Assembly (NCBI RefSeq): GCF_003336875.1
Contig: NZ_QGNJ01000018.1
Coordinates: 1-64,000, forward strand
DNA length: 64,000 bases
Reading direction: 5' to 3'
From: Oleisolibacter albus
Lineage (GTDB): Bacteria; Pseudomonadota; Alphaproteobacteria; Azospirillales; Azospirillaceae
A program made the translations under genes and the position numbers. Shown here piece by piece: positions 51,489 through 63,682 of this stretch (position 1 is the first letter of the stretch; each line of letters opens with the position of its first letter). Below the pieces are notes generated by a model. The model made no database searches, was not told where the DNA came from, and worked only from the letters and a program-made list of their open reading frames with translations.

Positions 51489-52406
51489 TCAGCCGCCGAT
51501 GATGCAGCGCAGGCCCAGCCCTTCGACCACGCCCTTCAGTTCATCGACCGTGGTCTTGGGCAGGGTCGGGGTATTGCCCATGGGATAGGGCCGGCCCAGC
51601 AGATCGTACTTGTTCTCCCCATAGGTGTGATAGGGCAGCAGATGCACGGTATCGACATTGTGCATCAGCTTGGCGAACCGGCCGATGGCCTCCACCGCCG
51701 GGCGGTTGGCATTGACGCCGGGCACCAGCGGCACCCGCACCACGGCCTTGGTGATGGTGGAGATGCGGATGGCGTTCTCCAGGATCTGCCGGTTGTCGAC
51801 ACCGGTATTCTCCTTGTGAACGGCCGGATCGATGGACTTCAGATCGACCAGGGCCTGGTCGACGAAGGGCATCACATCCTCCACCACCTCCTTGCTGGCA
51901 TGGCCGGTGGTCTCCATGGCCGTGTGCCAGCCCTTCTCCTTGCAGGCCTTCAGCAGCTCGCGGGCGAAGTCGGATTGCACCAGGGGCTCGCCGCCGGACA
52001 GGGTGATGCCGCCGTTGGAACGGCGATAGGTGGTGGCGTCCTTCTGCAGTTCCTGCACCACCTGCCACACGGTCATGCGCCGGCCCTTCATCACCAGGGC
52101 GTTGGGCAGGCAGACCTCGGCGCAGGCCCCGCAGGAGATGCAGCGGCTGCGGTCGATGAAGGTGGGGTTGGCGAAGGAGATCGCGCCCTGCTTGCACACC
52201 TCGATGCAGCGGTTGCACTGGGTGCAGGCCGACTTCTGGTACATCAGGATGGGCTGCGGACGCTGGGATTCCGGGTTGCTGCACCAGCGGCAGGACAGGG
52301 GGCAGCCTTTCAGGAAGACGATGGTGCGGATACCCGGCCCGTCATGGACCGAATAGCGCTGGATGTCGAAAACCGTGCCTTCCTGTTCATATCGGGTCGG
52401 GGTCAT
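51489..52406 (-). CDS. Glycyl radical enzyme activating enzyme (radical SAM)
   Basis: This 305-residue activase installs the glycyl radical on the diol dehydratase using S-adenosylmethionine. The radical-SAM cluster motif is GCPLSCRWC near residue 35. Two ferredoxin-like 4Fe-4S motifs follow (CTQCNRCIEVC and CISCGACAEVC), as in activases of glycerol/propanediol dehydratases and CutD. ITLSGGEPLVQ and the METTGHAS strand complete the barrel. GAGGAG precedes the ATG. It is the most distal gene of the microcompartment cluster, beyond a strong hairpin at 52794, so it may be made at lower level than the shell and cargo. Confidence 0.95.
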   Translation of the reverse strand: MTPTRYEQEGTVFDIQRYSVHDGPGIRTIVFLKGCPLSCRWCSNPESQRPQPILMYQKSACTQCNRCIEVCKQGAISFANPTFIDRSRCISCGACAEVCLPNALVMKGRRMTVWQVVQELQKDATTYRRSNGGITLSGGEPLVQSDFARELLKACKEKGWHTAMETTGHASKEVVEDVMPFVDQALVDLKSIDPAVHKENTGVDNRQILENAIRISTITKAVVRVPLVPGVNANRPAVEAIGRFAKLMHNVDTVHLLPYHTYGENKYDLLGRPYPMGNTPTLPKTTVDELKGVVEGLGLRCIIGG

Positions 52407-52466: not shown

Positions 52467-52766
52467 TCAGAAGGCGCTCATTTCCCTCTGGATGGCCTCC
52501 ATGGCGGCATGGACCGCGGAGGTCTCCCCGAAGAAAGCCAGGGTTGAAACATGCTGGGGACAGCTGCCGTACAGCTCCACCGTGTGGACATTGGAGGATT
52601 TGCCGGCGATATCCGCGAAGAAGAAGAGATCCGTCACGCTGGTCTGGACCAGCCCGACGGCGTCGTAGCGATGCCGCCGCAGAAAATCGCGGGATTCCGG
52701 GCGCATCCGCCGTTCCAGCATCTCCACCACTTCGGGGGTCGGCGCGCTGATGATCCGTGCAGTCAT
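52467..52766 (-). CDS. Divergent BMC-domain protein
   Basis: This 99-residue protein has an N-terminal extension of about 35 residues, rich in Arg and Glu (PEVVEMLERRMRPESRDFLRRHRY), and then a single BMC-like domain: AVGLVQTSVTDLFFFADIAGKSSNV ... LAFFGETSAVHAAMEAI. The KSSNV and closing helix match the canonical KSANV and [13 protein letters not shown] of shell hexamers. Between them the sequence VELYGSCPQHVS is unlike the pore loop of PduA-type proteins. It may be a minor shell component or a non-structural BMC protein. It is encoded between the aldehyde dehydrogenase and the activase. Confidence 0.75.
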   Translation of the reverse strand: MTARIISAPTPEVVEMLERRMRPESRDFLRRHRYDAVGLVQTSVTDLFFFADIAGKSSNVHTVELYGSCPQHVSTLAFFGETSAVHAAMEAIQREMSAF

Positions 52767-52833: not shown

Positions 52834-54495
52834 TCAGCGGACGTTCAGCGCCTCGACCATCACGCACTTGCGGCGGCGGGCGAAGGACTTGGCCGAGGTC
52901 AGCCCCTCCCCCGTGGGGCCGGCGATGGTGAAGGTGGAATAGCCCTCGCCGCCAGCGCCGAGGCCGGCATAGGACGGGCCGTTCTTCACGAAGATCGTGG
53001 TCTGGATCAGCTTCGCCATCTTGGTGAGCTTGCGCACATTGGTGGAATGCATGATGGCGGTGTGGCGATTGCCATGCTCCACCTCGACGGCCACGTCGAT
53101 GGCCTCGTCCACGTCCTTGACCCGGACCAGCGGCAGGATCGGCATCATCAGCTCCTCCTGCACGAACGGATGCTCCTTCGGCACATCCATGACGATGATC
53201 TTGATGCTGGCATCGGCCGCGATGCCGATCTTGTCCAGCAGCCACACCGCGCTCTTGCCCACGCAGGAGGTCTGCGGGCCGCCCTTGTCCGTCAGCACCA
53301 CCTTCTGCAACGCCGCGATCTGGGCCGGGTCGGTCAGTTCGTAGGCGCCGTTCTTCTTCAGGTTGAACAGCAGATAGTCGGCGATCTGATCGACCGCGAT
53401 GATCTCCTTCTCGGCGACACAGGGCACGTTGTTGTCGAAGCTGCAGCCATTGACGATGTCCTTGGCCGCCTTCTCGATGTCGGCGGTCTCGTCCACCACC
53501 ACGGGCGGATTGCCGGCACCGGCACCGATGGCCTTCTTGCCCGTGGACATCACCGCCTTGACGATGGCGGGGCCGCCGGTGGCCACCAGCATCCGCACCT
53601 TGGGATGGGCCATCAGGGCGTTGGTGTTCTCGATCGACGGCTTGGACACCGTCACCACCAGATTGGCCGGTGCCCCGAGATCGGCCAGCTTGCGATTGAT
53701 CAGCTGCACCAGCAGCAGCGACACCTTGCGGGCGCGCGGATGCGGGCTGAACACCACGCTGTTGCCGGCGGCCAGCATGCCGATGGAGTTGCAGATGATG
53801 GTCTCGGTCGGGTTGGTGGTCGGGGTGATGGCCCCGATGACGCCGTAGGGCGAGTATTCCACCAGGGTCAGGCCATTGTCGCCGCTCTGCGCGTCGGTGG
53901 TCAGATCCTCGGTGCCCGGCGTCTTCTCCGCGGCCAGCCGGTTCTTGATCAGCTTGTGCTCGACATTGCCGATGCCGGTTTCCTCCACCGCCATGCGTGC
54001 CAGGGTCTCCAGCGTCGCCGGGCAGAGCACCACATCGCGGATGCCCTGCACGAAGCGCTCGCGGTCGGCCATGGTACACAGCAGATACTGCCGCTGGGCC
54101 AGGGCCGAAGCCTCCACCGCCTCGTCCATGGTGGCGAAGACGCCATCGCCGCAATCGGTCGGGGCCGCCACCGTGGCTGCCGGCGCGGCCGGCGTCAGGC
54201 TCTGCTCCCCCACCACCTTGGCGATGATGCGGGCGATGGGATCATCGGCAGCCGTCTTGCCGGCGCCGGCTTTCCAGCCGCAACCGGCCGGATCGGGCAC
54301 ATGCGGAGCCGGCTGGCCGCCGGCCAGGGCCTTGGCGATGGCCTGTTCGATCAATCCTGCTGCCGATTGGCCCGTCGCCAGTGGCCTCGTCACGGCGGCC
54401 GGCTCCGCGGATGGGGGCGGCGGCGCATCGGCAGCCGCGCCATAGGCTTCGAGCACCTTGGCCACCGCGGCGGCGATCTGTCCGTCATTCATCAT
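52834..54495 (-). CDS. CoA-acylating propionaldehyde dehydrogenase (PduP/EutE type)
   Basis: This 553-residue enzyme would oxidise propanal to propionyl-CoA within the microcompartment. The catalytic domain begins near residue 115 (GVFATMDEAVEASALAQRQYL), with PTTNPTETIICNSIGMLAAGN, GAGAGNPPVVVDETAD and the catalytic Cys in SFDNNVPCVAEKE. The N-terminal 100 residues carry three short amphipathic helices of encapsulation-peptide type: residues 4-19, 45-59 and 84-97, joined by Pro/Ala-rich linkers. One such peptide is usual. The C-terminus KCVMVEALNVR is typical of EutE/PduP. AAGGAG lies 7 nt before the first of two ATGs. Confidence 0.94.
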   Translation of the reverse strand: MMNDGQIAAAVAKVLEAYGAAADAPPPPSAEPAAVTRPLATGQSAAGLIEQAIAKALAGGQPAPHVPDPAGCGWKAGAGKTAADDPIARIIAKVVGEQSLTPAAPAATVAAPTDCGDGVFATMDEAVEASALAQRQYLLCTMADRERFVQGIRDVVLCPATLETLARMAVEETGIGNVEHKLIKNRLAAEKTPGTEDLTTDAQSGDNGLTLVEYSPYGVIGAITPTTNPTETIICNSIGMLAAGNSVVFSPHPRARKVSLLLVQLINRKLADLGAPANLVVTVSKPSIENTNALMAHPKVRMLVATGGPAIVKAVMSTGKKAIGAGAGNPPVVVDETADIEKAAKDIVNGCSFDNNVPCVAEKEIIAVDQIADYLLFNLKKNGAYELTDPAQIAALQKVVLTDKGGPQTSCVGKSAVWLLDKIGIAADASIKIIVMDVPKEHPFVQEELMMPILPLVRVKDVDEAIDVAVEVEHGNRHTAIMHSTNVRKLTKMAKLIQTTIFVKNGPSYAGLGAGGEGYSTFTIAGPTGEGLTSAKSFARRRKCVMVEALNVR

Positions 54496-54523: not shown

Positions 54524-55006
54524 TCATTCCGAAAAAGTCTGCAGCGCCTGGGCGGCGATACGCACATCCTGCTCCGCCGTCCCGCCGCTGATGCCGATAG
54601 CGCCCACCACCACCCCGCCGCTGCGGCAGGGAAGGCCGCCGCCGAACAGCACGACGCGGCCCTGGTTGGTGGTCTGGATGCCGTAGAGGGGCTGGCCCGG
54701 TTGGGCCAGACGCCCCAGTTCGTCGGTCGGCAGCCGGAAGGCCGCCGCCGTGAATGCCTTGTTGATGGCGATGTCGGTGCTGCCCGGCAGGGTGCCGTCC
54801 ATGCGCTGCAGCAGCATCAGGCTGCCGGCGGCATCGGCGATGGCGACGACCACCGGCACAGCCAGATCCTGGGCCGCCCGCTCCGCCGCTGCGGCCAGCC
54901 TCTTGGCCTGCTCCAGCCCGAAGGCCGGGCGGTCGGCCAGGGCCGCGACCGTGGCACGGACCAGCGCGGCAAGCGTTTCCTTGTCTGTGGCGGGATGGGT
55001 GGACAT
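54524..55006 (-). CDS. GlcG/HbpS (DUF336, PduO C-terminal-like) protein
   Basis: This 160-residue protein of the GlcG/HbpS family has the pattern AERAAQDLAVPVVVAIADAAGSLMLLQRMDG, ... SIDIAINKAFTAAAFRLPTDELG (here STDIAINKAFTAAAF) and the end VVVGAIGISGGTAEQDVRIAAQAL. Related domains form the C-terminus of PduO and bind haem or cobalamin-like ligands; the role in glycyl radical microcompartments is not established. GGGAGG precedes the ATG at 55006; an apparent GTG start one codon earlier is disfavoured. Its start overlaps the BMC-P stop (TGATG-type), giving translational coupling. Confidence 0.88.
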   Translation of the reverse strand: MSTHPATDKETLAALVRATVAALADRPAFGLEQAKRLAAAAERAAQDLAVPVVVAIADAAGSLMLLQRMDGTLPGSTDIAINKAFTAAAFRLPTDELGRLAQPGQPLYGIQTTNQGRVVLFGGGLPCRSGGVVVGAIGISGGTAEQDVRIAAQALQTFSE

Positions 55007-55287
55007 CACAACCTCCCCCCGCCCACGGTCTCCACCGTGTCGACGATGCCGACGATGGCGGAGTCGACCACGGAATGGTCGTGGCCGCTGGCCCGGCGGG
55101 CGGCGCTGCCCTGGGCGACGATGACGGTCTCGCCATTGCCGGCGCCCACCGTGTCCACCGCGATCTCCGTCGATCCCTCGGGCTCCAGCATCTCCGTCAG
55201 CCGCGCCACGATCAGCAGCTTGCAGCCGGAGAGCGAGGAGTCCTTGCTGGTGGAGACCACCGTGCCGATGACTTTGCCCAGATACAT
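55006..55287 (-). CDS. BMC-P vertex protein (EutN/CcmL family)
   Basis: This 93-residue pentamer-forming shell protein closes the vertices of the microcompartment. The family pattern is clear: MYLGKVIGTVVSTSKDSSLSGCKLLIV at the start and VDTVGAGNGETVIVAQGSAARRA, then DSAIVGIVDTVE. GGAGGAG precedes the ATG. It overlaps the downstream GlcG-like gene. It is the only BMC-P gene visible in the locus. Confidence 0.95.
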   Translation of the reverse strand: MYLGKVIGTVVSTSKDSSLSGCKLLIVARLTEMLEPEGSTEIAVDTVGAGNGETVIVAQGSAARRASGHDHSVVDSAIVGIVDTVETVGGGRL

Positions 55288-57004: not shown

Positions 57005-57667
57005 TCAGAGCGGACGGATGCGGACGAGGTCGTCGTTCTTGAGGCCGAGGGCGTTGGCCTCCTCCACGTCGATGTGCATTTCCAGGGCCGACGCCTCGGC
57101 CGCGCGGACCGCCACATGGCGCAGGATGCCGCCACGGGCGCCGGTGATCTCCACATCCACCTCCTGGCCGTTGCGCAGGCCCAGACGGGCGGCCGTGGCC
57201 GGGGTCATGTGGATATGGCGCAGGGCGACGATGACGCCGTTCTGCTTCTGCACGCGGCCCTGCGGCCCGATGATCTCCAGCCCCGGCGTATCGTCGAGCT
57301 GGCCGGACATGCGCAGCGGCGCCCGCAGGCCGAGGGTGAAGCCGTCGGCCACCGAAATCTCGATCTGGGTCTCGGCCCGCACCGGCCCGAGCACACGGAC
57401 CTTGGACAGGCTGCCCTTCGGCCCCTTCAGCGTCACCGTCTCCTCGGCGGCGTACTGGCCCGGCTGCTTCATCGCCTTCATGCGATGCAGTTCCGCGCCC
57501 GGACCGAACAGGATCTCCATGTCGGCGCGGGAAAGGTGGATGTGCCGGTTGGACACGCCGACCGGAACCAGGAACGGGTCCTGCGCCCCACCGGGGGTGG
57601 TCTGCGGGTTCATCTCGCCCAGGATCTGGCGGATGACCCGCTCAATGGTGTCTTGCTGCAGTTCCAT
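57005..57667 (-). CDS. pduL: Phosphate propanoyltransferase PduL
   Basis: This 220-residue acyltransferase converts propionyl-CoA plus phosphate to propionyl-phosphate and recycles CoA inside the shell. It has an N-terminal encapsulation helix (DTIERVIRQILGEM, residues 6-19). Two PduL domains follow, with the zinc-ligand motifs VSNRHIHLSRADMEILFG and VIVALRHIHMTPATAARLGL. The C-terminus ALEMHIDVEEANALGLKNDDLVRI is typical. The ribosome site is weak and the gene follows the Pro-tail/BMC-H pair across a hairpin, which may tune its level. Confidence 0.95.
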   Translation of the reverse strand: MELQQDTIERVIRQILGEMNPQTTPGGAQDPFLVPVGVSNRHIHLSRADMEILFGPGAELHRMKAMKQPGQYAAEETVTLKGPKGSLSKVRVLGPVRAETQIEISVADGFTLGLRAPLRMSGQLDDTPGLEIIGPQGRVQKQNGVIVALRHIHMTPATAARLGLRNGQEVDVEITGARGGILRHVAVRAAEASALEMHIDVEEANALGLKNDDLVRIRPL

Positions 57668-57757: not shown

Positions 57758-58039
57758 TCAGCCGGCGCGCGGCAGGATCTTCTCCACGTCCGCATGCGGA
57801 CGCGGGATGATGTGCTTGGACACCACCGAACCGACCTTCTCGGCCGCGGCGGCACCGGCATCGACGGCGGCCTTCACGGCGCCGACATCGCCCCGGACCA
57901 GGACCGTCACCAGACCCGACCCGATCTTCTCGTACCCGACCAGCGTCACGTTCGCGGACTTGGTCATGGCATCGGCCGCTTCGATCGAGCCCACCAGGCC
58001 CTTCGTCTCGACCATTCCCAATGCTTCGCCAATCATCAT
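57758..58039 (-). CDS. BMC-H shell protein (PduA/PduJ type)
   Basis: This 93-residue canonical single-domain shell hexamer runs [58 protein letters not shown]. The pore loop is KIGSG, and a C-terminal helix ends [18 protein letters not shown] precedes the first of two ATGs. It is about 80 percent identical by eye to the other canonical BMC-H at 59556, so recent duplication is likely. It follows the Pro-tailed BMC-H gene by 10 bp. Confidence 0.95.
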
Positions 58040-58049
58040 CGTTCTCCTC

Positions 58050-58709
58050 TCAGGCATCGCGCCTGTTCTTGGGTTTTCCGGACTTCCCGACCGGAGGCCG
58101 GGGACCGGGCGGCGTCGGCCGCGGAGGCTGCGGGACCGGCGGCGCCGCCAGCGGGCCGGCCGGCGGAGCCGGCGGGGGATCGACCAGCGGCGGAGCCGGC
58201 GGAGGATCGGCCAGGGGCAGGGCCACCGGTGTCTCGACCGGCGGTGAAGCCGTCAGGGCCGCCACCGGCTTCGGCGCGGGCTGTGCCGGCGGTGTCACCG
58301 CAGGCGCAGCCGGTGCCGGTGCAGCAGCCGGTGCTGCGGTCGGTTCAGAGGGCGGGGCCGGCGGGGGGACCGGTGGCGACGGCGGGGCGGGCGGAGCCGG
58401 AGGAGGTGGAGCCGGCGTGGCCCCGACGGTGGCCGCATTGACGACCAGAGCGTCGATGCCGGCCGCCGGCCGGGCGATCACCCGGGTGGACACGACCCGG
58501 TTGATCTTCGCCGCGGCCGCCGCAGCGGCTGCCACCGCCGCGTTGACCGCCCCCACTTCCCCCTGCACCTTGACGACCGCCATGCCGTCGCCGCGGGTCA
58601 GCTCGTAACCCACCAGGGCGACGTTGGCCGACTTGACGGCCGCATCCGCCGCTTCGAAGGCAGCGGCCAGACCAACCGTCTCGATGAGGCCAAGGCTGAG
58701 TTGCGCCAT
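58050..58709 (-). CDS. BMC-H protein with long Pro-rich C-terminal extension
   Basis: This 219-residue protein starts with a complete BMC-H domain (residues 3-90: [56 protein letters not shown]). Its pore-loop region TRGDG differs from the KIGSG of the two canonical paralogues. From about residue 97 a 120-residue low-complexity tail is almost entirely Pro, Ala, Val and Thr, with repeated PPPAPP and DPPPAPP units. It ends in a basic [12 protein letters not shown]. The tail has no known domain and should be extended and disordered. It may face the lumen or cytosol and bind cargo or cellular partners. The gene lies between BMC-T and BMC-H. Confidence 0.9.
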
Positions 58710-58730: not shown

Positions 58731-59525
58731 TTAGATGTACGGCGTCGTGCTGGACTTGATCTCCGCCGGGTCCAGGGTGCCCAGGACCTTCTTGCCGACT
58801 TCCCGCGCGGCGATGATCGCCTGGCGGACGGCACCGGAGTCGCCGCTGAACATGAAGATCACTTCGTTGCTGAAGCTGGTCCCGTTGCCCGGCGAGGCAT
58901 AGCCGACGGCATTGACCGTGGCCGCCTTGGCCGCGGTGTCGGCCAGCAGCACGCCGATGGCGGCCGGCGCACCGACGGTGATGCCGAAGGCCTGGCCCAT
59001 GGGAGCACCGAAGGCCTTGTTCAGGGCATAGCTGGCGCGGGCGGAGTACTGGAACTCCAGGTGGCCGGCCGGCGAGCCGTAGACATCGCCGAAGGTGCGG
59101 TCCAGTTCCTTCAGGGTGACCTCGACGGCCCGGCGGGCGTCGGAGACATCCTCGGCACCGAACAGGATCAGGCAGCCATGGCCCGCCCCGCCCTCGGTGT
59201 CGCGGGCCAGCTCGATCAGCACCACCTCGCTGTTGGTGGCCTTCACCGCCTCGTCAGCGGCGAAGATGTGCGGACCGGCACCGGTGCGCCCGCCGATGAT
59301 GCCGATGGACCGGTACTTCGGGTTGATCTTCATCTTCTCGTGGAGCAGCGGGTCCACGTTGGCGATGACCAGACCCACGGTGTGGCCGATGGCCGTACCC
59401 ACGAACTCCGTCAGGCCGCACCCGGCCAAGGCACCGAAGGGCTTGGCGGAGCTGGTCTGGGGCTCGGTGGTGCCCATCTTGCGCACGACCTCGCCGATGA
59501 TCTTGTCGACCAGTTCGTCTTTCAT
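58731..59525 (-). CDS. BMC-T trimeric shell protein (PduB-like)
   Basis: This 264-residue tandem BMC protein forms pseudohexameric trimers with gated pores. Two BMC repeats are seen: FVGTAIGHTVGLVIANVDPLL ... GGRTGAGPHIFAADEAVKATNSEVVLIELARDTEGGAGHG, and AFGITVGAPAAIGVLLADTAAKAATVNAVGYASPGNG. The N-terminus MKDELVDKIIGEVVRKMG looks like an encapsulation helix, as in the PduB N-terminus that links shell and core. It lies between the two groups of BMC-H genes. Confidence 0.94.
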   Translation of the reverse strand: MKDELVDKIIGEVVRKMGTTEPQTSSAKPFGALAGCGLTEFVGTAIGHTVGLVIANVDPLLHEKMKINPKYRSIGIIGGRTGAGPHIFAADEAVKATNSEVVLIELARDTEGGAGHGCLILFGAEDVSDARRAVEVTLKELDRTFGDVYGSPAGHLEFQYSARASYALNKAFGAPMGQAFGITVGAPAAIGVLLADTAAKAATVNAVGYASPGNGTSFSNEVIFMFSGDSGAVRQAIIAAREVGKKVLGTLDPAEIKSSTTPYI

Positions 59526-59555: not shown

Positions 59556-59852
59556 CTACTCGGCCGCGGCCTTGCTGGTGCCGCGCGGCAGGATCTTCTC
59601 CAGCTCGGTATGCGGGCGCGGGATGACGTGGATGGAGATGACCTCGCCCACCTTGCCGGCGGCGACGGCACCGGCATCGGTGGCCGCCTTCACGGCGCCC
59701 ACATCGCCCCGGACCATCACGGTCACCAGGCCCGAGCCGATCTTCTCGTAGCCCACCAGGGCCACATTGGCGGACTTGACCATGGCGTCGGCCGCTTCGA
59801 TCGCGCCGACCAGCCCTTTGGTTTCCACCATGCCCAAAGCTTCCTGTTGCAT
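59556..59852 (-). CDS. BMC-H shell protein (PduA/PduJ type)
   Basis: This 98-residue canonical shell hexamer runs [38 protein letters not shown], with the same KIGSG pore loop as its paralogue at 57758. A short C-terminal tail ([11 protein letters not shown]) is longer than in that paralogue. It is the first shell gene after the alcohol dehydrogenase and is probably the major facet protein. Confidence 0.95.
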
Positions 59853-59900: not shown

Positions 59901-61043
59901 TCAGCCGGCGACCGCCCGGATCAGCTGCCGCACCTCGTCCGCCGTGGGACGACGCGGGTTGCTGGCCGTGCAGGCATCCGCCAGGGCGGCGTTGACCAGA
60001 TCCTGTTCGATGGAGGTGCAGGAGGCGGGGTCGATGCCCGCCGCCCGCAGGGTTACCGGAATGCCCAGCCGCTCGTTGAGGCGCGACAGGGCCTTGGCCA
60101 GGCTGGCGGCGCCGGCCCGCGGGGTCGAAGCCTCCAGCCCCAGCCGGGCGGCGATGGCGGCATAGCGCCCCGCCGCCGGCAGGCAGCTGCCGAAATCGGC
60201 CGAGAGGCCGGCATTGTACGCGACCACCAGCGGCAGCAGCATGGCGTTGATGCGTCCATGCGGGATGTGCAGCTGGCCGCCGATGGCATGGGCCAGACCA
60301 TGGTTCAGGCCCAGACCGGCGGCATTGAAGGCCATGCCGGCCATGCAGGAGGCGTTGTGCAGCGCCGTGCGGGCCGCCAGATCGGACCCGTCATCGAACA
60401 CCCGCGTCAGGTTCGCGAAGGCCAGGCTGACCGCCTTCTCCGCGAACGCGTCGCTGAAGTCCGAGGCACCGACGGCGACATAGGCTTCCAGGGCGTGGGT
60501 GATGACATCCATGCCCGTGTCCGCCGTGACCTTGGCCGGCACGCTCAGCACCAGCTCCGGGTCCAGCACGGCGATGTCCGGCACCAGCCCGTCCCCGCGC
60601 AGCGGGTGCTTCAGCCCCCGCTCCGGTTCGGAGATCACGGCGTAGCAGGTCACCTCCGAGCCGGTGCCGCTGGTGGTCGGCACGGCCGCCAGCTGGATCG
60701 GCCAGACAGTGGCCGCCGCCTCGCGCAGGGTGGCCAGGATGGCCTTGGCCGCGTCGATGGCGGACCCGCCACCGATGGCCAGCAGCACATCCGGACGGAA
60801 TTCGGCCATGCGGCCGGCCCCCTTGACCACGTCCTGCAGGGGCGGCTCCGGCACCACCTGGCTGAACACCTCCACCTCACAGGGTGGCAGTTTGGCCCGA
60901 ATCCGGTCCACCACCCCCGACTTCACCATGAAGGCGTCGGTGATGATGCCCACCCGTTTGCCGGCGAACGCGCCGAACCGTCCGTACATGCCGGGGCCGG
61001 ACACGATCTCGGTTTTCAGGAAGAAACGCTGGAATCCGGTCAT
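59901..61043 (-). CDS. Iron-dependent 1-propanol dehydrogenase (PduQ-like)
   Basis: This 380-residue group III alcohol dehydrogenase reduces propanal to 1-propanol and recycles NAD for the aldehyde dehydrogenase within the shell. The nucleotide motif is LLAIGGGSAIDAAKAILATL. PTTSGTGSEVTCYAV follows, then the metal ligands in GLGLNHGLAHAIGGQLHIPHG. It has no obvious encapsulation peptide at either end. It is 86 bp after the dehydratase gene, a gap holding a strong hairpin. It differs from the C-terminal half of AdhE encoded at 21.8-24.5 kb. Confidence 0.93.
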   Translation of the reverse strand: MTGFQRFFLKTEIVSGPGMYGRFGAFAGKRVGIITDAFMVKSGVVDRIRAKLPPCEVEVFSQVVPEPPLQDVVKGAGRMAEFRPDVLLAIGGGSAIDAAKAILATLREAAATVWPIQLAAVPTTSGTGSEVTCYAVISEPERGLKHPLRGDGLVPDIAVLDPELVLSVPAKVTADTGMDVITHALEAYVAVGASDFSDAFAEKAVSLAFANLTRVFDDGSDLAARTALHNASCMAGMAFNAAGLGLNHGLAHAIGGQLHIPHGRINAMLLPLVVAYNAGLSADFGSCLPAAGRYAAIAARLGLEASTPRAGAASLAKALSRLNERLGIPVTLRAAGIDPASCTSIEQDLVNAALADACTASNPRRPTADEVRQLIRAVAG

Positions 61044-61129: not shown

Positions 61130-63682
61130 TCAGAACGTCTGCTCCGTGCGGCTGATGATGTCGTCCTGCACTTCCTTGGCGAGGACGACGAACTGGGCGC
61201 TGTAGCCGGCGACGCGGACCACCAGATCCCGGTACTTCTCCGGCTCACGCTGGGCGGCCAGCAACGTCTCACGGTCGATGACGTTGAACTGGACATGCAT
61301 GCCCTTGTGGTCGAAGTAGCTGCGGACCATGCCGGCGAAGTTGCGCAGGCCGTTCTCGCCGGCCAGAGCGGTCGGCAGGAACTTCTGGTTGTACAGCGTC
61401 CCGTTCGACGCGATGAAGTGGTCGAGCTTGGCCACCGAGTTGGCCGCCGCGGTCGGGCCGTTGACGTCCTTGCCCTGGCGGGGCGACACGCCGTCGGCCA
61501 GCGGGGCCTTGGCCAGACGGCCATCGGGCAGGGCACCGACATCCTTGCCGAACAACACGTTGGCCGACACCGGGTAGATACCGGCCTGGAACTGGCCGCC
61601 ACGCGGGTTCTTGTACTTCTCGACCTCGCGGCAGTAGATCTGGGCGCACTTGCGAGCGACCATGTCCACTTCGTCGATGTCGTTGCCGAAGCTGGGAGTG
61701 TTGTCCAGCAGACGGCGGATGTTGTCGAAGTCGGCGGAACCGCTGCCGGTGCTGGCCGGCGTGCCGCCGGACAGGGTGCGGTAGACCTCGCCCTTCAGCG
61801 CCGACACATCCAGCGAGCCGGCGCTGGCCAGAACCTTCTTCACCGCGGCATAGACCTGCTCCTCGGAGAAGGCACCGGTGCCGGCCGTGGTAGTGGCCGG
61901 GGCGCCGCCGCCGACGGCATAGCCGAAGTTGGCGTCCAGGGCCTTCTTCAGGTCGCCCAGCGACAGCTTCTTGTCGTCGAAGATGTGCTTCTTCATGGCG
62001 TACACGGAGTCACCCGTGTCGGCCACGCCGAAGGCCTGCGGACCCGTGAAGTTGTAGATGGCGCCGCCTTCCTGGACCGACTTGCCGCGGCCGATGCAGT
62101 CGTCCACCAGGGCCGACAGGAAGGGCAGCGGGCAGCGCTCGGCATGGGCAAGGTCAACGCAGTTGTCAGCCTCGGCCAGATAGTAGACGAAGTATTCCAT
62201 CTGCTTCTGGAAGGCGGCGTAGAACTCGTCGATGCTGCGGAAGGCGGTCAGCTCGCCAGTGACCGGCCCCAGCTGCTTGCCGTTGGCGCGGCCGTTGTTC
62301 AGGGTGATTTCCAGAACCTTGGCCACGTTGAAGAAGGCGGCGTCGTGCCAGCCCTCGGTACGGTGGATGGCCTGGGGCTCCACGCAGCCGACGATGCCGT
62401 AGTCGCGGGCGTCCTTCAGGGCCACGCCGCGGTTCTGCAGCGCCGGGATGATGACCTCGTCATTGTACATGGCGGGGACACCGAGGCCGAGGCGTGTCAC
62501 CTCGCAGGCCCGGTACAGGAACTCGTCCGGCGTACCCTGCCAGACGCGGATGGAGAAGGACGGCGCCGGCAGACGCACATGGGCCGTGGCTTCCATGCAC
62601 ATGTAGGAGACGTCGTTGGTGGCATCCAGACCGTCCTCGGTCTGACCGCCGACGCAGAGGTTCTGGAACACGGCGTAGCCGGCGAAGGCCTGGGCCGAAA
62701 CCTCGTCGCGGGTCTTGTTGACGTCGTTCAGCTTGATCCAGATGCAGTCGACCAGCTCCTGGGCGAACTCCTGGCTGATGGACTTGTCCGCAACCAGGTA
62801 CGGGTACATGTACTGGTCGAACCGGCCCGGCGAGATGGAATGGCCGCTGGATTCGATCTGCAGCAGGATCTGCACGAACCAGAAGGCCTGGCAGGCCTCG
62901 TAGAAGGTGGTGGCGCCGCATTCCGGCACCCGGGCGCAGTTCTTGGCGATCTGCAGCAGCTCGGCCTTGCGGGCCGGGTTGCTCTCGGTCTGGGCCAGTT
63001 CCTGGGCCTTGGCGGAATAACGGTGCGCGAAGTTGATCGCCGCGGTGTAGGCGATGATGACGCCGTTATAGAACTGCTGCTTCTTGATGTAGTCCGGGTC
63101 GGTGCGGTCCATCTTCTCCATGGCCTGCACCGCCTCGGCGATGACGCCCCGGAAGCCGATCTTCAGGACCTTGCCGTAATCCACGCAGACGTGGCCGACG
63201 CCGCCATAGAAGTAGTTGCCGACGGTGAAGACGCCGTTGGCGATGCAGTCCTTGGCTTCCTGCGACATGTAGGAGGACGCCAGGTCACTGGTGGTCCGGC
63301 CAGGCCAGTACTTGAAGGCCTCGTGCAGCTGGGCTGCCGTTTCCTTGGGGATCTGGAACGGGTCCGCCAGGCGGGTGCCCATGGTATCGAATTCCTTTTC
63401 GACCCAGTCGAAGGAGAATTCGGGGCAGATCTCGGTGGAGCGCGGGTTGCGGGTGATGGCACCGACGATCAGCTCGTCGTCGCGGATGGTCACCGGCAGA
63501 TTGTTGAAAATCTTCTCCGCCACCTTGGCGCGGCGCAGGATCGGGGGCAGCCCTTCCGTTTCCTTATAGGCTTCGGTCACCAGAACCGCCCGGTCCGCCT
63601 CGACATAGGGCGTTGCATTGAGAATCTGGTTCTTCAGCCGCAGCACTCGATCGGTCGGTTTGGAAAAACCCTTCTCGATCAT
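61130..63682 (-). CDS. Glycyl radical diol dehydratase (1,2-propanediol dehydratase, B12-independent)
   Basis: This 850-residue glycyl radical enzyme would dehydrate 1,2-propanediol to propanal anaerobically. The radical Gly826 sits in VRVAGYSAQ. Active-site residues His164 (GVGHVCVDY), Ser282 (ESSGHSISPG), Cys433 and Glu435 (GCVEPQ) and Asp447 (GWHDAAFF) fall at the numbers I recall for Clostridium butyricum glycerol dehydratase. The position of its Tyr339 is Phe here. A 63-residue insertion near 588-650 holds FSEEQVYAAVKKVLASAG between Gly/Thr/Ser linkers, probably an internal encapsulation peptide. I start at ATG 63682 with GGAGG upstream rather than a GTG four codons earlier. Glycerol or choline remain less likely substrates. 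Confidence 0.9.
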   Translation of the reverse strand: MIEKGFSKPTDRVLRLKNQILNATPYVEADRAVLVTEAYKETEGLPPILRRAKVAEKIFNNLPVTIRDDELIVGAITRNPRSTEICPEFSFDWVEKEFDTMGTRLADPFQIPKETAAQLHEAFKYWPGRTTSDLASSYMSQEAKDCIANGVFTVGNYFYGGVGHVCVDYGKVLKIGFRGVIAEAVQAMEKMDRTDPDYIKKQQFYNGVIIAYTAAINFAHRYSAKAQELAQTESNPARKAELLQIAKNCARVPECGATTFYEACQAFWFVQILLQIESSGHSISPGRFDQYMYPYLVADKSISQEFAQELVDCIWIKLNDVNKTRDEVSAQAFAGYAVFQNLCVGGQTEDGLDATNDVSYMCMEATAHVRLPAPSFSIRVWQGTPDEFLYRACEVTRLGLGVPAMYNDEVIIPALQNRGVALKDARDYGIVGCVEPQAIHRTEGWHDAAFFNVAKVLEITLNNGRANGKQLGPVTGELTAFRSIDEFYAAFQKQMEYFVYYLAEADNCVDLAHAERCPLPFLSALVDDCIGRGKSVQEGGAIYNFTGPQAFGVADTGDSVYAMKKHIFDDKKLSLGDLKKALDANFGYAVGGGAPATTTAGTGAFSEEQVYAAVKKVLASAGSLDVSALKGEVYRTLSGGTPASTGSGSADFDNIRRLLDNTPSFGNDIDEVDMVARKCAQIYCREVEKYKNPRGGQFQAGIYPVSANVLFGKDVGALPDGRLAKAPLADGVSPRQGKDVNGPTAAANSVAKLDHFIASNGTLYNQKFLPTALAGENGLRNFAGMVRSYFDHKGMHVQFNVIDRETLLAAQREPEKYRDLVVRVAGYSAQFVVLAKEVQDDIISRTEQTF

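Follow-up and report, generated by a model that had tools for sequence, protein, structure and literature searches.

The insertion in the dehydratase of a microcompartment locus

The canonical encapsulation peptide sits at the N- or C-terminus of its cargo protein (PMC8217296). In the window, the 64,000-nucleotide stretch of Oleisolibacter albus DNA analysed here, a glycyl radical dehydratase encoded among shell protein genes carries additional residues at positions 588-650 of 850, which is not a terminal location. The question raised by this locus is whether such an internal segment can act as an encapsulation peptide. Internal address tags would allow packaging into a bacterial organelle without a free chain end, and this matters for the engineering of cargo.

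By its gene content, the window is a GRM3-type propanediol locus. Genes for a glycyl radical enzyme and its activating enzyme are found on the same strand with BMC shell genes, an aldehyde dehydrogenase and PduL (Table 1). The pore motif carried by the shell protein at 52467-52766 is that of GrpU, which is defined by G-X-C-P-Q-N/H and is typical of the GRM3b subtype by the counts of a review (PMC6325248). This protein is probably an iron-sulphur shell protein and, because of its motif, the locus would stand near the GRM3b subtype. Tandem DNA repeats at 58116-58218 fall inside the Pro/Ala-rich tail of one of the BMC-H proteins (58050-58709).

Table 1. Features of the dehydratase locus and of the insertion in the window.
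Feature	Position	Strand	Basis
Glycyl radical enzyme activating protein	51489..52406	-	NCBIfam TIGR02494, 370.9 bits (cut-off 174.35)
BMC-domain shell protein, GrpU pore motif G-S-C-P-Q-H	52467..52766	-	PF00936, 30.1 bits (cut-off 24.5; weak)
Acylating aldehyde dehydrogenase with N-terminal encapsulation-type helices	52834..54495	-	NCBIfam NF011927 from residue 87; helices by eye
EutN/CcmL vertex shell protein	55006..55287	-	PF03319
PduL-type phosphate propanoyltransferase	57005..57667	-	NF011652, above cut-off
BMC-H shell protein	57758..58057	-	PF00936, 106.3 bits
BMC-H shell protein, long Pro/Ala-rich tail	58050..58709	-	PF00936, 78.1 bits, residues 5-81 of 219
PduB shell protein	58731..59525	-	TIGR04501, above cut-off
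BMC-H (PduA-like) shell protein	59556..59852	-	PF00936, 100.4 bits
Iron-containing alcohol dehydrogenase, PduQ-like by context	59901..61043	-	NCBIfam iron-ADH matches, none above cut-off; role inferred from annotated related loci
GRM3-type glycyl radical 1,2-propanediol dehydratase (GrpM-like), 850 residues	61130..63682	-	Open reading frame, Pfam, structure match
Radical glycine codon, Gly826	61205..61207	-	Position of RVAGYSA motif; invariant in alignment A1
63-residue insertion, residues 588-650	61733..61921	-	Alignment with 1r8w and 9rco; family alignments
First linker, residues 588-606	61865..61921	-	pLDDT below 50 at 592-604; majority-residue fraction 0.29 over 589-604
Predicted helix 1, residues 607-621, likely the encapsulation peptide proper	61820..61864	-	AlphaFold2 helix; E607, Y611 and V614 conserved
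Predicted helix 2, residues 626-637	61772..61807	-	AlphaFold2 helix; kept in proteobacterial rows
Second linker, residues 638-650	61733..61771	-	pLDDT below 50 at 639-647; majority-residue fraction 0.34 over 641-652

The dehydratase frame begins with ATG and spans 63682 to 61133 on the minus strand; its stop codon occupies 61130-61132. An alternative GTG start four codons upstream would give a protein of 854 residues. The Pfam domains are PFL-like (residues 10-712) and Gly_radical (residues 729-832). Structure alignment with 9rco, an entry titled 1,2-propanediol dehydratase, gives 73% identity, and E. coli relatives of the protein are annotated as GrpM. Judged from relatives (the title of 9rco and the enzyme described in PMC5311937), its substrate would be 1,2-propanediol.

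The position of the insertion was determined by phmmer alignment with PDB sequences. Residues 1-586 and 653-848 of the dehydratase align to residues 1-586 and 590-785 of the C. butyricum glycerol dehydratase (1r8w, 787 residues), so that 66 residues stand where the latter has 3, a net excess of 63. In the same alignment Gly826 pairs with residue 763. The first-pass annotation had pointed to an excess of 63 residues and to a shift of the radical glycine from 763 to 826; both figures turned out to be exact, which rules out chance or a mistaken reference value behind the two differences. The coordinates it had proposed, 61735-61920, deviate by at most two bases from those of residues 588-650 (61733-61921). 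Its description of Gly/Ala/Thr/Ser linkers and a second short helix likewise agrees with the composition of the insertion, where Gly, Ala, Ser and Thr make up 60% of the residues (29% in the whole dehydratase), and with the two helices predicted by AlphaFold2. The stretch FSEEQVYAAVKKVLASAG represents residues 605-622. Amphipathicity was gauged by the hydrophobic moment: among 15-residue stretches of the dehydratase, the two helices rank at the 63rd and 60th percentile, which is unremarkable.

Predicted structure of the insertion

An AlphaFold2 model of the dehydratase was built from a 59-row alignment and has a mean pLDDT of 89.2 and a pTM of 0.87, with most of the core above a pLDDT of 90. 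Stretches of three or more residues with pLDDT below 50 occur only at 592-604 and 639-647, in the two linkers. Between these unordered and poorly conserved linkers, the model places two helices (607-621 and 626-637; about 15 residues each) joined by a short loop; the helices are of low confidence, as they lie in blocks of mean pLDDT 46-62. The core of the model superimposes on the crystal structures 9rco and 1r8w with rmsd of 0.8 and 0.9, respectively. The sequences of both lack the insertion in the alignment, and its absence from 9rco is read by us as owing to the construct. From the confidence and secondary structure of this single-chain model, the GRM3 helices would sit outside the core. 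An insertion folded into the core would have spoken against the earlier reading of the segment; such folding is not indicated, either by the model with its linkers below 50 or by the matching structures that lack the insertion.

A GRM5-type relative (L086) was modelled as well. Its helices were predicted at 584-600 and 607-618 with block means of 67-81 and no residue below 50. This segment is more ordered in the AlphaFold2 prediction than the GRM3 segment of the window.

Conservation of the insertion among relatives

Non-identical relatives of at least 760 residues, more than 50% identity and a measurable span were compared (n = 121), the span being the number of residues between the NF and GND landmarks; one protein in which a landmark was missing (L156) was given a span of 15 by hand. 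The relatives are not a random sample: they come from the best 80 of at least 589 confirmed relatives together with 36 of the 206 genomes of one clostridial family, whose proteins were counted once where they repeated earlier loci. PflD-like rows of 34-38% identity were kept out of the count, as was L037, whose enzyme is split over two frames. In the latter gene, from Candidatus Symbiopectobacterium, the insertion can still be read; the split would fit gene decay or a fault of assembly.

Among the sampled relatives the span is bimodal: at least 58 residues in 95/121, 15-36 residues in 25/121 and 50 residues in one (L161). As 95 non-identical relatives have a span of at least 58, the insertion is not a local accident. 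The alignments of these relatives place an insertion of about 60 residues at the same site of the glycyl radical enzyme. Absence from close homologues, which would also have weakened the first reading, did not occur. Of the 41 relatives that share more than 64% identity and have 10 kb or more of context, 40 carry the insertion; the lone exception, from Erwinia, comes from a 22 kb locus that holds no shell gene. A comparison of GRM3 homologues, suggested at the first pass, thus indicates a conserved insertion at the level of sequence.

Conservation within the insertion is uneven. In 38 GRM3 rows the mean majority-residue fraction is 0.29 and 0.34 for the linkers, 0.55 for helix 1, 0.51 for the loop with helix 2 and 0.83-0.87 for the core; the helices are better kept than the linkers, the length of which varies among relatives. 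Positions that stand out are E607 (97%), V614 (92%), Y611 (87%) and S623 (84%). Proteobacterial rows retain helix 2 well, and many clostridial rows diverge there. The near-invariant helix positions extend across Alphaproteobacteria, Gammaproteobacteria and Bacillota. An unconserved insertion is ruled out by the family alignments and by the conservation in the 38 GRM3 rows.

Association of the insertion with shell genes

To look for shell genes near the relatives, profiles grown from the BMC-H and EutN proteins of the window were used. Counting was restricted to relatives of clear state that had 10 kb or more of context (114 of 121). Six were set aside for shorter context (L001, which is the window's own, L047, L066, L073, L079 and L089), and L161 was set aside as intermediate and scored as lacking the segment in the tree. 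Shell genes are nearby in 72/89 of the sampled relatives with the segment and in 0/25 of those without it (Fisher p = 2.6e-14, a value that ignores relatedness). The 17 relatives with the segment and no nearby shell gene all have BMC-domain genes elsewhere in the genome (17/17). The same is true of 20 of the 25 relatives without the segment; hence the presence of BMC genes in the genome does not discriminate, and their position does.

In a quick FastTree tree, from the alignment of which the segment was left out, the state of the segment changes about four times. Three independent pairs were obtained on well-supported branches, of which a mean of 2.9 were in the expected direction and none opposite (sign test, median p = 0.25). 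With only about four changes on the tree, relatedness alone could explain the association. In this sample no relative without the segment has shell genes nearby (0/25), with few independent changes behind that result (p = 0.25); the association is consistent and is not statistically independent proof. One locus counts against it: L066 has the segment and comes from a metagenome bin without any BMC match. Eight loci (L051, L060, L061, L070, L077, L082, L086 and L087) have the segment, and no shell gene was detected in the roughly 10 kb to each side of the dehydratase. Their genomes hold BMC genes elsewhere, which suggests split GRM loci.

Natural contrasts were found among the relatives. The dehydratase of Erwinia mallotivora (L045, 10001-12424) shares about 71% identity with the window protein, has a span of 36 residues and lacks both helices. 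It is nested in the enterobacterial GRM3 clade with a local support of 98 (FastTree). An activating-enzyme homologue (58%) is encoded in its locus, and no shell genes were found in a profile search of the 22 kb. The open frames beside it are, by eye, those of a heme-binding-type protein, a response regulator and rhamnose genes. The BMC matches of this genome are on another contig, which by eye is a GRM2-like locus with a 1129-residue CutC-like enzyme and an activase. The Erwinia case was not found in the literature searched on the subject, a search that did not go by that name. In genome G445 there are two copies of the dehydratase, one with a span of 75 residues and shell genes nearby, the other with a span of 26 and none. 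In the clostridial genome G492, the protein with the 50-residue span (L161) has no recognisable helix 1, and the genome has no BMC match. Such contrasts make the function of the segment testable with existing sequences.

Likeness to the terminal peptides of the locus

The insertion was compared with the N-termini of other cargo and shell proteins. Against the N-terminus of the window's own aldehyde dehydrogenase it scores 36 (p = 0.007 by full shuffle and 0.004 by class-preserving shuffle). Over the loci, this pairwise likeness is significant in 10/48 by full shuffle and 7/48 by class-preserving shuffle, and in only 2/30 GRM3 loci by either. A profile of the GRM3 segments matched the aldehyde dehydrogenase N-termini of the loci with a probability of 72% over 22 columns (reversed control, 0.3%). 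This resemblance is suggestive at best, and common origin with the aldehyde dehydrogenase peptide is not claimed, since the pairwise test was positive in only 2 of 30 GRM3 loci. For the N-termini of PduB and PduL, profile and pairwise comparisons with the insertion gave no convincing match, and a reversed PduB control outscored the true comparison.

The terminal peptides of the aldehyde dehydrogenase, PduL and PduB of the locus are likewise a short helix-like stretch on a variable linker. They are N-terminal, whereas the candidate peptide of the dehydratase is internal. In the aldehyde dehydrogenase (52834-54495), about 100 residues precede the catalytic domain and three encapsulation-type helix-like stretches are seen there by eye; two such stretches are described for the R. 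palustris enzyme (PMC5311937).

Function of the insertion

The insertion is very probably an intramolecular encapsulation peptide, and we infer from the above both its contact with the shell and its targeting in the cell. The internal encapsulation-type helix put forward at the first pass is thereby supported by the predicted anatomy, the conservation, the association with shell genes and the precedent in print. Counting against it are the unexceptional amphipathicity of the helices, their low confidence in the model and the pairwise likeness to terminal peptides that holds in few loci. In the proposed mechanism, two flexible linkers would hold a pair of short helices on the dehydratase core. 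Helix 1 (607-621) would most likely contact shell proteins or other cargo peptides during the assembly of the GRM3 propanediol organelle, and the dehydratase would thereby be packaged with its activating enzyme bound.

A reading in which the insertion is mainly an interface between cargo proteins, which oligomerises or condenses the dehydratase into the organelle core and leaves its packaging to other cargo rather than to shell contact, appears unlikely. The full-length R. palustris enzyme precipitates and the GRM5 insertion of R. inulinivorans is part of an oligomer interface (both PMC5311937), and the more ordered prediction for the GRM5-type L086 segment would fit an interface of this kind; however, the long arms of the GRM3 segment are predicted to be disordered, and for encapsulation peptides condensation does not preclude binding to the shell (PMC6325248). 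It is less probable still that the insertion is a docking site for the activating enzyme or a redox partner and so serves activation of the glycyl radical. In the chain the insertion does precede the glycyl radical domain, and the dehydratase is bound by its activating enzyme (PMC5311937), but the R. palustris enzyme without the helices was reported there still to bind the activating enzyme and to be activated, and clostridial relatives that lack the segment (L056, L068) have an activating-enzyme homologue in their locus.

The notion of a neutral, disordered expansion with no function is the least credible of these readings. The low-complexity Gly/Ala/Ser/Thr linkers of variable length are what such an expansion might leave. 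The two helices with positions near-invariant over three bacterial groups and the association with shell genes count against it. With the encapsulation peptide as the preferred reading, a wider proposal can be put forward only tentatively: the two-helix loop might be one inherited module, a shell tether on long floppy arms in GRM3 and a docked enzyme-enzyme assembler on short arms in GRM5, which erodes where the shell genes are gone and the enzyme is intact (Erwinia mallotivora, clostridial G492).

Comparison with known systems

An intramolecular encapsulation peptide has been described in the GRM3 enzyme of R. palustris BisB18 (Zarzycki et al. 2017, PMC5311937). There the insertion comprises a pair of helices, each about 15 residues long, with a short loop and with unordered linkers that likewise measure about 15 residues, and is absent from the C. 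butyricum glycerol dehydratase. The enzyme without the helices is reported to be more soluble and to make propionaldehyde. The dehydratase of the window belongs to the same family, with the same kind of locus and type of insertion, a likeness drawn from the published description and not residue by residue. An insertion of about 60 residues in the dehydratases of GRM3, GRM4 and GRM5 has been predicted to be an encapsulation peptide (PMC6325248). As the peptide is described in these two sources, the window adds a further example and not a new kind; no reporter test of the peptide was found in the text available from either.

The principle of an internal tag is thus already in print for this dehydratase family. 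The comparative test of the segment against shell genes is an addition beyond the published work. The set of natural contrasts, namely the Erwinia enzyme, the two copies in one genome and the ordered versus floppy predictions, is also added here.

Another close counterpart is GrpM of E. coli (L098, RefSeq), which is 78% identical to the window protein, has the insertion with both helices and is encoded in a similar operon; its helix residues differ from those of the window protein (NEQDIYAVVKRIIEQHGALD and SEEQVYAAVKKVLASAGSLD, respectively). The GRM5 diol dehydratase of R. inulinivorans (5i2a, 5i2g; 843 residues) has its insertion at the same place and is 52-53% identical by structure alignment. 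Profiles of the GRM5-type and GRM3 segments match each other weakly, with a probability of 15%. The GRM3 profile matches a third group with 77%, and that group matches GRM5 with 48%; on these figures a common origin of the GRM3 and GRM5 segments is no more than possible. The glycerol dehydratase of C. butyricum (1r8w, 1r9d) has the same fold with 56% identity by structure alignment; it lacks the insertion, and it is described as not being associated with a microcompartment (PMC5311937).
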